64,000 nucleotides of DNA from Rhodanobacter sp. B05 (GTDB lineage Bacteria; Pseudomonadota; Gammaproteobacteria; Xanthomonadales; Rhodanobacteraceae). Positions 11,094 to 14,144 of the stretch are shown here, one piece after another. Position numbers and translations under genes: made by a program. A model generated the notes under the pieces. It was given only the letters and a program-made list of their open reading frames with translations, was not told the DNA's origin and did not search any database. The stretch lies in the NCBI RefSeq assembly GCF_002001085.1, contig NZ_MUNU01000019.1:124001-188000 (forward strand), read 5' to 3'. Within the stretch, counting starts at the first letter, position 1. Every line of letters starts with the position of its first letter.

Positions 11094-11729
11094 TCAGGCC
11101 GATGGAGAGAGCAACCCGCGTTCGGACGCCATCCGGTACAGATCCAGCTCCGACCCGGCCCCCAGCTTGCCCATCAGGCTCGCGCGATGGATGTAGACGG
11201 TCTTCTGGCCGATCCCCAGATCCGCGGCAACCTGCTTGGGTGTACGCCCGCCCGCAAGCAGCAGGAACACCTCGCGCTCGCGCGCGGTCAGGCGATTGAC
11301 CGGATCGAGTGCCGCGTTGGGCCGGTCGGCGCGACGCTGGCGCAGATCCGAACTGAGGAAGCACTCGCCCTGCATCACCGAGCGCAAGCCCGCCACCAGC
11401 TCTTCCGGCGCCACACCCTTGGTGACGAAGCCGCTGGCCCCACGGCGCAACGCTTCGCTGACGTAGGGATCGCCATCATGCATGCTCAGAACGACCACGC
11501 GAGTCGATGCGTGCACGCTAAGCAGGTGTTCGATCAAGGGCAATCCACTGCCGTCGGGCAGCGACAGATCCAGCGCCACGAGATCCGGCCGCCAGTGTCC
11601 GACCGCTTCCACCGCGTCGTCCGCGCTGCGGCATTCGGCCACCACCTCCAGATCCGGCTCCAGCTCGATAAGCCGCTTGAAGCCTTCACGAACGATGGCA
11701 TGGTCGTCGACCAGAACGATGCTGTGCAT
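11094..11729 (-). CDS. NarL/FixJ (UvrY-like) response regulator
   Basis: A two-component response regulator of 211 residues. The receiver domain begins MHSIVLVDDHAIVREG; the phospho-acceptor is Asp54 in DLVALDLSLPDG and the conserved Lys is in GFVTKG. The C-terminal LuxR-type helix-turn-helix contains RLTAREREVFLLLAGG and VADLGIGQKTVYIHRASL. It is divergent from the histidine kinase next to it, with about 90 bases between the two starts, so they form one system. It resembles UvrY/GacA/UhpA in architecture; which of these it equals cannot be told from sequence alone. Confidence 0.9.
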   Translation of the reverse strand: MHSIVLVDDHAIVREGFKRLIELEPDLEVVAECRSADDAVEAVGHWRPDLVALDLSLPDGSGLPLIEHLLSVHASTRVVVLSMHDGDPYVSEALRRGASGFVTKGVAPEELVAGLRSVMQGECFLSSDLRQRRADRPNAALDPVNRLTAREREVFLLLAGGRTPKQVAADLGIGQKTVYIHRASLMGKLGAGSELDLYRMASERGLLSPSA

Positions 11730-11821
11730 CGCCCTACTTTGACACAGGAAACATGCCTCGGGGCACTTTCCCGGCTCAGCGGCATCCGGGGGACGCAGCA
11801 TGCCACTCTTCCGATGGGCAC

Positions 11822-13435
11822 ATGTACCATCCCGGCATGCGATCGAAGCCTCTCCTGCTGCCCGATTCCGGGCCACTTCTGGGCACCGGCTACCTGGCCC
11901 TGTGGCTGTTGCTGCAGACAACCGCCCAGCCCTACTGGACACTGCCCTTCGGGCTGCGATTCGCCGCGTTGCTGCTTGCGCCGATGCGCTACTGGGTGTG
12001 GTTCCTCGGCGCCGAACTGGCGGCCGCAGCCGGTATCGGCCTGATCCATGGACTTCCGCCCGGGTGGAGCAGTCCTGCGCTCCATGAAATGCCGGGGTTC
12101 GTGGCGATGATGGGCTGCATGTGGCTGCTGCGCAGGCTCAACCTGCATGCCAGCCTGCGCAGTCCGCAGGAAGTGACCCGGCTGCTGCTGTCCGTGCTGC
12201 TGGTGGTGACGACGACGACCGCGGTGGATGCGGCACTGCTCGCCTTGCTGCACTCACCAAGCTCACCCGAACTGATGGTGCGCGCCATCGCCGAGGAACT
12301 ACTCAGCCACTATCTGGCGATCCTGATCGTCGCGCCGGTGCTGATCATGTTGCTGCATACCCGAATGGAAAAGGCGGCGCTGATACGCTTGTTCATGGAC
12401 GGACTGCTGGTGCTGGTACCTTCCATGGCGATCTTGCTGGTGCTGTCCGTGCGTGCTGCACCGCAGCCCCAGTTCGCCCGCGTGCTGTCGCTGGCCCCCG
12501 TGCTGTTCTTCGCGTTCCGTCACGGCTGGCGCGGTGCCAGCCTGGCCATGCTCATTACCAGCCTGGGCATGACCCTGGTCGATTGGCATCTCGGCCACAC
12601 CCCGTCGACCGCGGCGGCTTACCTGTTCCTGGCCGTCGCCGGCACCGGCGCGCTGATGCTCGGTTCCGCCACCGACGCCCTGCGACGCAGCAGCAAACGA
12701 GTGGCCGAGCAGAACGTCTATCTTGGCGCGGTCAATCGCCGGCTGGATCAACTTGCCCACCAACTGCGCGACGCTGCGCGCGGCAATCTGCAGGCCGACG
12801 AAAACCAGCGGCGCCACCTCGCCGCCGAACTGCACGACGAGCTGGGCCAGAACATCACCGCCATCCAGACGCACGTGAAGCTCGCGCAGGCGCGCCTGCG
12901 CGAGGCCGGCATGGAGGACGTCAGCACTTCGATCAACAACATCCTGGGGCACATGCGGCGGGCCCTGCATCGCCTGCTGGACGACCTGCGTCCCGCCGTG
13001 CTGGACGAGTTCGGCCTGTTCCGGGCGCTCGACGAGGGACCGATTCGCGATCTTCTGACCAGCGCCGGCATGCGATACCGCACGGCACTGCATGGTGACC
13101 CCCGGCTGCTGGACGACGACACGCGTACTGCCATCTATCGACTGGTGCAGGAGAGCGCGACCAACACGGTCAAGCACGCCCATGCCGGCGAGTTCGGATT
13201 GCGTCTGCGCATCGGTGAACGCAATGGCGCGGCCTTGGCCGTGCTCGATCTGCGCGACGATGGCAGCGGCCTTCCCAACCGCCTGCCTCGCGGGGGCCGG
13301 GGTCTGCAAGGCATGCGCGACCGGGTTACCTCGCTGGGCGGGCAATTCCGTCTACGCCCTGATCATTCAGGCGTCCACCTGCGAATTTTGCTGCGAAGCA
13401 ACAGAGGAACTGCAGGACGTCCTCAGCAAAACTAG
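11822..13435 (+). CDS. Membrane histidine kinase with MASE1-like sensor (UhpB/NarX type)
   Basis: A sensor kinase of about 537 residues. The first ~280 residues form eight or more hydrophobic segments resembling a MASE1 integral-membrane sensor. The HisKA_3 dimerisation box holds the phospho-accepting histidine in AAELHDELGQN (about residue 338). The HATPase domain has an N box (SATNTVKHAHA), DDGSGLP and GRGLQGMRDRV. The start is uncertain: 11822 or 11837 put the first membrane helix close to the N-terminus, while ATG 11753 has an AGGAA only two bases upstream and would add an unlikely polar extension. Its partner is the divergent response regulator. Confidence 0.88.
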   Translation: MYHPGMRSKPLLLPDSGPLLGTGYLALWLLLQTTAQPYWTLPFGLRFAALLLAPMRYWVWFLGAELAAAAGIGLIHGLPPGWSSPALHEMPGFVAMMGCMWLLRRLNLHASLRSPQEVTRLLLSVLLVVTTTTAVDAALLALLHSPSSPELMVRAIAEELLSHYLAILIVAPVLIMLLHTRMEKAALIRLFMDGLLVLVPSMAILLVLSVRAAPQPQFARVLSLAPVLFFAFRHGWRGASLAMLITSLGMTLVDWHLGHTPSTAAAYLFLAVAGTGALMLGSATDALRRSSKRVAEQNVYLGAVNRRLDQLAHQLRDAARGNLQADENQRRHLAAELHDELGQNITAIQTHVKLAQARLREAGMEDVSTSINNILGHMRRALHRLLDDLRPAVLDEFGLFRALDEGPIRDLLTSAGMRYRTALHGDPRLLDDDTRTAIYRLVQESATNTVKHAHAGEFGLRLRIGERNGAALAVLDLRDDGSGLPNRLPRGGRGLQGMRDRVTSLGGQFRLRPDHSGVHLRILLRSNRGTAGRPQQN

Positions 13436-13479
13436 GAATTTTTCCGATACCGAAAACGTGAAGACATCGTTAGGATCGT

Positions 13480-13678
13480 GTCATCGATGTGGGGGAGCCG
13501 CCGTCGTGAGATGGCGGATCAGGGTCACCGTGGGGACGGTGGTCCTGAAAAACGGCAGGAAGCCGTTTCGCCGCTACCTGGCACCGGATTCCGGCAGGCT
13601 CGAATTTTCGAGCACGCCGTCCGACAGGTAGAGGAGCAGTCGCGGGTGGACAGGAGTCCGCTTCGCGGCTTTTTTTTG
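13480..13678 (+). ncRNA. Candidate structured small RNA, GGA-rich, possibly a Csr/Rsm sponge
   Basis: No convincing protein is encoded between the kinase and fur, but the region folds cleanly by eye. Paired segments are 13498-13502 with 13513-13517; 13519-13523 plus 13526-13531 with 13536-13541 plus 13544-13548 (loop GGGG); 13550-13556 with 13562-13568 (loop AGGAA); 13574-13580 with 13625-13631, enclosing hairpins 13584-13594 and 13598-13613; and 13648-13651 with 13656-13659 (tetraloop AGGA). It ends at a terminator (13658-13677). From 13436 to 13680 there are ten GGA trinucleotides. CsrB/RsmY-type RNAs present GGA in hairpin loops and are controlled by UvrY/GacA-type regulators, and such a regulator lies beside it. 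The class assignment is inference; the structure is seen. The 5' end is not fixed. Confidence 0.5.
13650..13678 (+). terminator. Rho-independent terminator of the candidate sRNA or kinase transcript
   Basis: CCGC-TTC-GCGG is followed directly by CT and seven further T on the plus strand. The 4-pair stem is short but the U tract is long. Its left arm overlaps the right arm of the upstream AGGA hairpin by two bases, so the two structures compete. Confidence 0.75.
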
Positions 13679-13721
13679 GCCGTTCACCTGATTCCGCCTC
13701 TTGGACCAAGACGCCTGCAGC

Positions 13722-14144
13722 TTAGTCCTTTCGGCTGCGCTGCTTTGGTCGCACGTAGAGCACCAGACTGTGATCCTCGATCACGTAGCCATGCCGGGCG
13801 GCGATCTCGTGCTGCAGACGCTCGATCTCCTCGCTGACGAACTCGATGACCTTTCCGCTGTCCACATCAATCATGTGGTCGTGGTGCTTGCCGCGATCGA
13901 GTTCATAAACAGCCTGGCCACCTTCGAAATTATGCTTGACGATGATGCCCGCCGCTTCGAATTGTGTGAGTACGCGGTACACCGTCGCCAGCCCGATATC
14001 CTCCTGATGGGCGAGCAGGTTCTTGTAAACGTCTTCGGCAGTGAGGTGCTGTACCCCCTCTTCGTCGAAGATCTGCAGGATGCGCATGCGCGGGTGGGTC
14101 ACCTTGAGGCCGACCCTGCGCAGCTCCTTGGTTTCCTGTTCCAT
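13722..14144 (-). CDS. fur: Ferric uptake regulator Fur
   Basis: The global iron-responsive repressor, 140 residues. The winged helix includes LRRVGLKVTHPRMRILQIF and DIGLATVYRVLTQFEAAGI. The metal-binding and dimerisation part has the HHDHMIDVDSGKVIEF motif typical of Fur. It lacks the C-terminal CxxC pairs, which is known for some Xanthomonad Fur proteins. It is divergent from bamE (76 bases between starts), the classical fur-omlA arrangement of Xanthomonads. A small palindrome in the shared region could be an operator. Confidence 0.95.
   Translation of the reverse strand: MEQETKELRRVGLKVTHPRMRILQIFDEEGVQHLTAEDVYKNLLAHQEDIGLATVYRVLTQFEAAGIIVKHNFEGGQAVYELDRGKHHDHMIDVDSGKVIEFVSEEIERLQHEIAARHGYVIEDHSLVLYVRPKQRSRKD

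Follow-up and report, generated by a model that had tools for sequence, protein, structure and literature searches.

A conserved structured RNA beside fur in Rhodanobacteraceae as a candidate CsrA/RsmA sponge under an adjacent two-component pair

What is encoded in the roughly 200 bases that separate a sensor kinase gene from fur in Rhodanobacter sp. B05, which protein would it serve, and what would control it? The question was raised by a preliminary description of the window (the whole stretch of 64,000 nucleotides analysed here, to which coordinates refer unless a locus is named). It proposed a new Csr/Rsm-type sponge RNA next to a UvrY-like two-component pair, to be judged by compensatory changes, conserved AGGA loops, comparison with the CsrB/RsmY/RsmZ models of Rfam and the search for a conserved open reading frame. 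In the retrieved parts of three papers, rsmB/CsrB-type RNAs were stated not to have been found in Xanthomonas (PMC3937308, PMC7286519, PMC7694677); one of these suggested an undiscovered mechanism in RsmA regulation, and in PMC7694677 no homologue of known families was reported in Xanthomonas. RsmA-regulating RNAs were predicted by machine learning in PMC5568370, the main text of which mentions no Xanthomonas, Xylella or Rhodanobacter. Among the matches listed from the open-licence literature, as far as their text was retrieved, none was found to describe an Rsm RNA that neighbours fur or occurs in Rhodanobacteraceae. A family-wide candidate in Rhodanobacteraceae, which are related to Xanthomonas, would provide defined targets for tests, namely a gene, its promoter and its regulator.

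Structure and conservation of the RNA element

The candidate RNA was placed at 13483-13677 of the forward strand on the basis of fold, conservation and covariation, with a start inferred to within 2 nt on either side. The minimum free energy of this 195-nt sequence was -103.3 kcal/mol, whereas shuffles averaged -76.1 (z -6.5) and none of 200 equalled it; the structured stretch announced between kinase and fur was thus real and far above chance. A 251-base stretch containing the RNA gave a z of -4.7 for its fold. As the stem-rich opposite strand of that stretch folds well too (z -4.5), the strand cannot be fixed by folding alone, and the proposed forward assignment rests on the GGA loops, the -10-like element and the T tract. 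The 5' end of the RNA, its AUCGAUGUGGGGG end, most likely lies near 13483. The convergent neighbour fur (13722-14144, reverse strand; NF006999, 168.6 bits, cut-off 146) is context only and stands outside the proposed system. The presence of a real structured RNA gene at this position was regarded as virtually certain.

Near the 5' end, a near-invariant GGGGGAG (13490-13496; GGGGGA in 86 of 89 RNAs) is partly paired in the predicted fold. It is followed by hairpin 1 (13498-13517), whose loop lacks GGA and whose stem showed strong covariation, with both-side changes in 6 of 7 pairs. Hairpin 2 (13519-13548) carries the GUGGGGAC loop (13530-13537), invariant in all 89 RNAs, on a stem with both-side changes in 9 of 12 pairs. 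Hairpin 3 (13551-13567), GGC-AGGAA-GCC, presents the CsrB-type element CAGGA(U/A/C)G, here as the loop CAGGAAG; the element was kept in 82/89 RNAs and both-side changes occurred in 4 of 6 pairs. Behind the long irregular arm (13575-13630), a terminator-like hairpin with an interrupted stem (13638-13677) shows GGACAGGAGUCC with an AGGA loop and runs into T8; here ACAGGAGU was found in 86/89 RNAs and both-side changes in 5 of 10 pairs. The hairpins with AGGAA, GGGG and AGGA loops and the T tract were therefore located where the preliminary description had put them, and the AGGA loops are conserved, being constant while the stems vary. Its count of ten GGA in 245 bases was reproduced for 13434-13678; two of these (13435 and 13473) belong to the promoter-like region and eight to the RNA. 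The three-way junction it had drawn behind CTACCTG/CAGGTAG had to be given up, as the same ends close the one long arm in the predicted fold. This central arm aligns poorly and is absent from the consensus; folded singly, its ends paired in 86/86 scored arms compared with 43% of shuffled arms, three of the 89 having been dropped where the arm borders were not recognised.

The element was detected by BLASTN in 140 of 233 family genomes and in 17 of 26 genera, including one doubtful match (G219, E 5e-4, the sole match in its own genus) which may be due to chance. In total, 89 RNA loci were fetched, including the window's own, and fur was on the opposite strand, convergent with the RNA, in 87 of them; the sequence retrieved for L025 and L069 showed no fur. 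The RNA is also carried by Dyella ginsengisoli LA-4 (G064, locus L060); since the sampled family includes Dyella, it corresponds to Rhodanobacteraceae. Other genera of the family are plausibly Rhodanobacter, Luteibacter and so on.

Thinning at 92% identity reduced the 89 sequences to 66, and after L036 (159 nt) was left out, alignment A1 contained 65. The RNAalifold consensus of A1 had 40 pairs, with standard pairs in 96.4% of cells. Both-side changes that keep the pairing were observed at 24 pairs and in 270 cells, compared with 15.3 and 72.2 in shuffles, and none of 500 shuffles was as high, in a comparison where the structure was derived from A1 itself and the shuffles ignore relatedness. 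When the partners were slid by 1 to 3 columns, pairing fell to 33-55%. The compensatory changes by which the fold was to be judged are thus present, with the exception of consensus helix 1 (columns 9-14 with 97-102), which had zero both-side changes and is unsupported.

A covariance model, R1, was searched over the order and the class with strict filters, under which weak matches can be missed. Of the 398 genomes in the order, it matched 100, each once, and 97 of these belong to Rhodanobacteraceae. Genera g20 and g11 were thereby added to the BLAST set; their four loci (L123-L126) likewise neighbour fur, at distances of 67 to about 870 bases. No convincing copy was found with R1 outside Rhodanobacteraceae in the order and class samples. 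Five weak matches were treated as chance: three of 23-27 bits came from the order's other families, aligned mainly via the terminator-like hairpin and did not lie at fur, and two of about 24 bits came from the class.

Established identities were considered as well. No Rfam family reached its gathering score in the window; in the RNA region, the only hit up to E 10 was SAM-SAH, at 10.5 bits on the other strand. In 14 loci of 12 relatives, no match to CsrB, CsrC, RsmX, RsmY or RsmZ was obtained (E up to 1 or 0.5), and sX12 was rejected, as it appeared only in the relative G103 with 29.8 bits (cut-off 106). A riboswitch or 5' leader was rejected because the same strand is empty downstream and fur is convergent. 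A small open reading frame from the AUG in AUCGAUG, present in 87/89 RNAs, was likewise set aside: the frame passes the RNA end in 42, stops after 20 codons in 20, and closes at 12 other lengths of 21-53 codons in the remaining 25. Coding is also disfavoured by the variation ahead of the first indel, which is greatest at second codon positions (0.144 vs 0.054 and 0.085). A conserved open reading frame that could account for the conservation was looked for and none was found.

Promoter-like region and two-component pair

The RNA is preceded by a palindrome, TAGGAATTTTTCCGATA (13433-13449, forward strand), centred at about -43 and overlapping the kinase stop codon TAG. We propose this palindrome as the regulator site, with TAGGAATTTTTCC as the sequence that the phosphorylated response regulator would bind. 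A -10-like element, TAGGAT (13471-13476), follows; TANNAT was present in 82/89 relatives and a looser pattern in 88/89 loci, and the palindrome to -10 spacing was 23 in 87 of the 88 scored loci and 24 in the remaining one. A sigma-70 consensus scan of 13380-13720 reported no promoter and no -35 match, and a simple terminator scan of the same interval reported no terminator, the stem of the last hairpin being interrupted. Since neither was reported by consensus scans, the promoter and terminator calls rest on conservation and by-eye reading; an absent -35 would fit an activator-dependent promoter.

The palindrome core, TAGGAANTTTTCC, had one exact match in the whole genome, at the RNA promoter. 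Elsewhere in the genome, three one-mismatch palindromes were found and a control pattern matched four times, so there is no excess that would point to a wider regulon. The GacA box has the motif TGTAAGN6CTTACA. Allowing up to 3 mismatches, none was found near the RNA promoter, and the window held 3 where 4.7 were expected by chance.

The response regulator gene (11094-11729, reverse strand) encodes a receiver and a GerE/LuxR helix-turn-helix domain (PF00072, PF00196) of the NarL/FixJ type. All its NCBIfam scores were below the cut-off. The closest models were MctR, with 154 bits (cut-off 300), and UhpA, with 145.6 (cut-off 258); UvrY/SirA/GacA gave 124 (cut-off 280). The divergent sensor kinase gene (11753-13435, forward strand) encodes MASE1 and HisKA_3 domains, with HATPase_c just under the cut-off, and its best model was UhpB, at 174.2 of 408 bits and so under the equivalog cut-off. 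These regulator scores and the UhpB-like kinase indicate that the pair is not GacS/GacA, and the UvrY-like label was replaced by a UhpB/UhpA-like one. Control by GacS/GacA was rejected on the regulator's UvrY/SirA/GacA score and on the absence of a GacA box near the RNA promoter. The closest UvrY/SirA/GacA match of the genome is a different NarL-type regulator (L214, G000:C11:53695-54327; 222 bits, cut-off 280). Just 24 bp separate the called kinase start (11753) from the regulator start at 11729; the true kinase start may be M29 (11837), because the listed orthologues begin aligning at residues 2 to 43.

The kinase gene lies immediately upstream of the RNA and on the same strand in 85/89 loci. 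In 8 of 10 larger regions from relatives, a regulator orthologue of 72-91% identity was divergent from the kinase; it was not found in G167 and G168. Kinase matches of E 1e-60 or better occurred in 161/230 family genomes. Weaker kinase matches in g5, g22 and g24 (E 1e-62 to 1e-104) were accompanied by a regulator only 49-55% identical. In G167 and G168, the RNA was kept beside fur with no adjacent pair, the best regulator identity was 36% and 34%, and the palindrome was altered (L191, L192). The pair is therefore not indispensable in these two genomes, and the two loci represent a natural experiment in rewiring. G184 and G185 have recN, regulator and kinase side by side, with no RNA behind the kinase (L225, L226); their RNA and fur are on another contig. 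The palindrome started with TAGGAA in 84/85 loci with an adjacent kinase and in 0/4 without, all four of which had (C/T)GGGAA; the one exception among the 85, L014, has TAAGAATTTTTCTTA, a symmetrical change. The four altered palindromes may represent about two independent events, since G168, G184 and G185 have changes in common and appear to be relatives.

Genera g18 and g19 remained below the R1 threshold, and in most of their loci the interval from kinase to fur contains the palindrome together with a structured stretch that bears GGA. Among 11 loci of g18, g19 and g20, the palindrome pattern was present in seven (L137, L183, L146, L176, L177, L178 and L180), L175 and L179 had variants recognised by eye, the contig of L182 ends too early, and in L181 no palindrome was found even with a looser pattern. 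The stretches after the seven palindromes showed 2 or 3 GGA loops in predicted folds; in L137, L183 and L176, the T tract was not recognised and the predicted fold extends into fur. That distant genera with a diverged RNA retain palindrome and GGA hairpins in most of the loci inspected counts in favour of the preferred reading.

Loci without the RNA were also compared. In g2, g5 and g24, five loci (L134, L135, L139, L141 and L145) have recN directly next to fur; neither kinase nor regulator was matched in between, and R1 found no match in their genomes (G033, G029, G208, G209 and G015). G175 (97% complete) had no RNA match, no kinase at 1e-60 and no close regulator. No RNA was matched by BLAST in G178 and G189, where the regulator-kinase contig ends inside the kinase. 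At 20 kinase-homologue loci of another family of the order (L150-L169), and in four stretches estimated behind weaker kinase homologues (G031, G038 and G215), no comparable GGA-rich RNA was found; three GGA hairpins per 190 nt were obtained once and otherwise 0-2, while two positive controls gave three.

Predicted function and alternative explanations

GGA hairpin loops (closing pair included) were strongly enriched, with a mean of 2.97 per RNA compared with 0.67 in dinucleotide shuffles (4.4-fold), and at least three were present in 86/89 RNAs compared with 1.5% of shuffles, the 89 RNAs being related and not independent. According to the retrieved part of PMC7652899, high-affinity CsrA elements include the CsrB repeat CAGGA(U/A/C)G and the SELEX core ACARGGAUGU; the loop elements of the RNA equal the former and resemble the latter. 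A high-affinity element, CAGGA(U/A/C)G or of the ACA-GGA-GU type, is present in 82/89 and 86/89 RNAs. Only about five sites are exposed, far below the approximately 18 of CsrB given there. Of all the loops, UGGGGA in hairpin 2 is the best conserved, yet it is not an ideal ANGGA, and the stem of this hairpin, at 12-13 bp, is longer than those of most SELEX ligands in the same source. A constraint on hairpin 2 other than CsrA is therefore possible; a CsrA site would not seem to call for so strict an invariance of GUGGGGAC, and a second function is possible. The genome has one CsrA gene, and CsrA scored above the cut-off in 218/230 family genomes and all 26 genera; being near-universal in the family, it gives no co-occurrence signal. 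This csrA (L170, 1501-1656) lies directly upstream of a tRNA-Ser (gct) gene (1781-1873).

The best reading of these observations is a CsrA/RsmA-sequestering RNA under the adjacent two-component pair, which as a whole we consider probable. That the RNA is a CsrA sponge, with binding predicted from its loops, appears highly likely, and control by the adjacent pair, with activation predicted from the promoter layout and linkage, hardly less so. From the observed structure and covariation, invariant loops, promoter layout, linkage and CsrA presence, we infer the following course. The membrane-bound MASE1-HisKA_3 kinase would sense a signal and phosphorylate the divergently encoded NarL-type regulator, which would bind the palindrome at about -43 and activate a promoter that has a -10-like element and no consensus -35. 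A free-standing small RNA of about 195 nt, with its own promoter and intrinsic terminator, would then be transcribed. Three hairpin loops and one or two less paired stretches would show GGA and mimic CsrA/RsmA target sites, so that CsrA dimers would be sequestered and, as the biological output, CsrA-controlled mRNAs released. The RNA is probably the missing CsrA sponge of Rhodanobacteraceae. The early proposal of a sponge tied to its neighbouring pair thus keeps its core through the covariation, the invariant GGA loops, the kinase linkage, the presence of CsrA and the absence of a conserved open reading frame, and loses the UvrY-like label.

Other explanations were weighed against this reading. 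The G-rich loops GUGGGGAC and GUGGGGGAG could pair with C-rich stretches of mRNAs, making the element a base-pairing or dual-function RNA in which the AGGA loops are secondary. The conservation of GUGGGGAC in every RNA, stricter than CsrA alone seems to need, would suit such a role, but two more loops hold textbook CsrA elements, one of them in the terminator-like hairpin, and the 4.4-fold excess of GGA hairpin loops also speaks for CsrA; we consider base pairing as the main function unlikely. It is equally improbable in our judgement that the RNA is a CsrA sponge which the adjacent pair does not control, with inherited synteny and another factor using the palindrome. Its retention in G167 and G168, where no close regulator orthologue was found, and the location of the pair on another contig in G184 and G185 would agree with such independence. 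Against it stand the palindrome, which departs from TAGGAA in all four loci lacking an adjacent kinase and otherwise varies once, symmetrically, in L014, and the five recN-fur loci of three genera in which kinase, regulator and RNA are all missing from between.

Long stems and a conserved fold would also suit a structured RNA for another protein, either RNA polymerase, as with 6S RNA, or Hfq or ProQ. 6S RNA is among the Rfam families. Neither the window nor the scanned loci of relatives gave any Rfam family at gathering score, and the frozen positions are GGA loops and not one long bulged helix, which makes this possibility very slight. The element could also be no more than the 3' untranslated region of the kinase mRNA with its terminator. 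In favour of this, palindrome and kinase stop codon overlap, the RNA is downstream and co-directional wherever the kinase is adjacent (85/85), and no promoter was reported by the sigma-70 scan. Palindrome, -10-like element and RNA start are nevertheless held at fixed spacing, a plain terminator would have no need of extra hairpins and invariant loops, and 4/89 loci have the RNA without an adjacent kinase, so this view was given next to no credence. Going beyond the preferred reading of a pair-controlled CsrA sponge, an origin independent of Gac/Rsm may be envisaged, with an unrelated RNA family, its own single-target UhpBA-like pair, a role as main CsrA switch of Rhodanobacteraceae, a CsrA site in the terminator hairpin and a second function of the GUGGGGAC loop; this fuller picture is tentative and has slightly less than an even chance.

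Comparison with known systems

Should the preferred reading be true, an Rsm RNA can belong to a two-component system different from GacS/GacA, and the Gac-Rsm wiring is therefore not the sole way to build such a switch. In the related group, RsmU (sRX061) of Xanthomonas campestris is described, in the retrieved part of PMC7694677, as an RsmA-binding RNA processed from the 3' UTR of comEA (XC1332). Both RNAs have GGA hairpins, with RsmA binding predicted for the one described here; unlike the 3' UTR-derived RsmU, the latter neighbours fur, follows a promoter-like region of its own and shows linkage to a two-component pair. In the retrieved part of PMC7366521, RsmV and RsmW of Pseudomonas aeruginosa are described as sequestering RsmA independently of GacS-GacA and as seemingly specific to P. 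aeruginosa, whereas the RNA reported here spans most genera of its family and has an apparent dedicated regulator.

The pair resembles UhpB/UhpA in its MASE1-HisKA_3 kinase and NarL-type regulator, the kinase scoring highest with UhpB and the regulator second highest with UhpA, but it scored far under the equivalog cut-offs and is linked to an RNA gene. UhpB/UhpA are linked to a sugar-phosphate transporter.

The RNA also resembles CsrB/CsrC of Escherichia coli and RsmX/RsmY/RsmZ of Pseudomonas, which likewise present GGA in several hairpin loops, CAGGA(U/A/C)G among them. These are free-standing RNAs, as is proposed here, and are driven by a two-component system, as is probable here. The RNA of Rhodanobacteraceae differs from them in having no Rfam match to their families, a different regulator pair, a candidate CsrA site within the terminator-like hairpin, the invariant GUGGGGAC loop and one R1 match per genome. 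The most economical explanation is a pair-controlled CsrA/RsmA sponge, which would work like CsrB or RsmZ while standing outside their Rfam families by the tests run.
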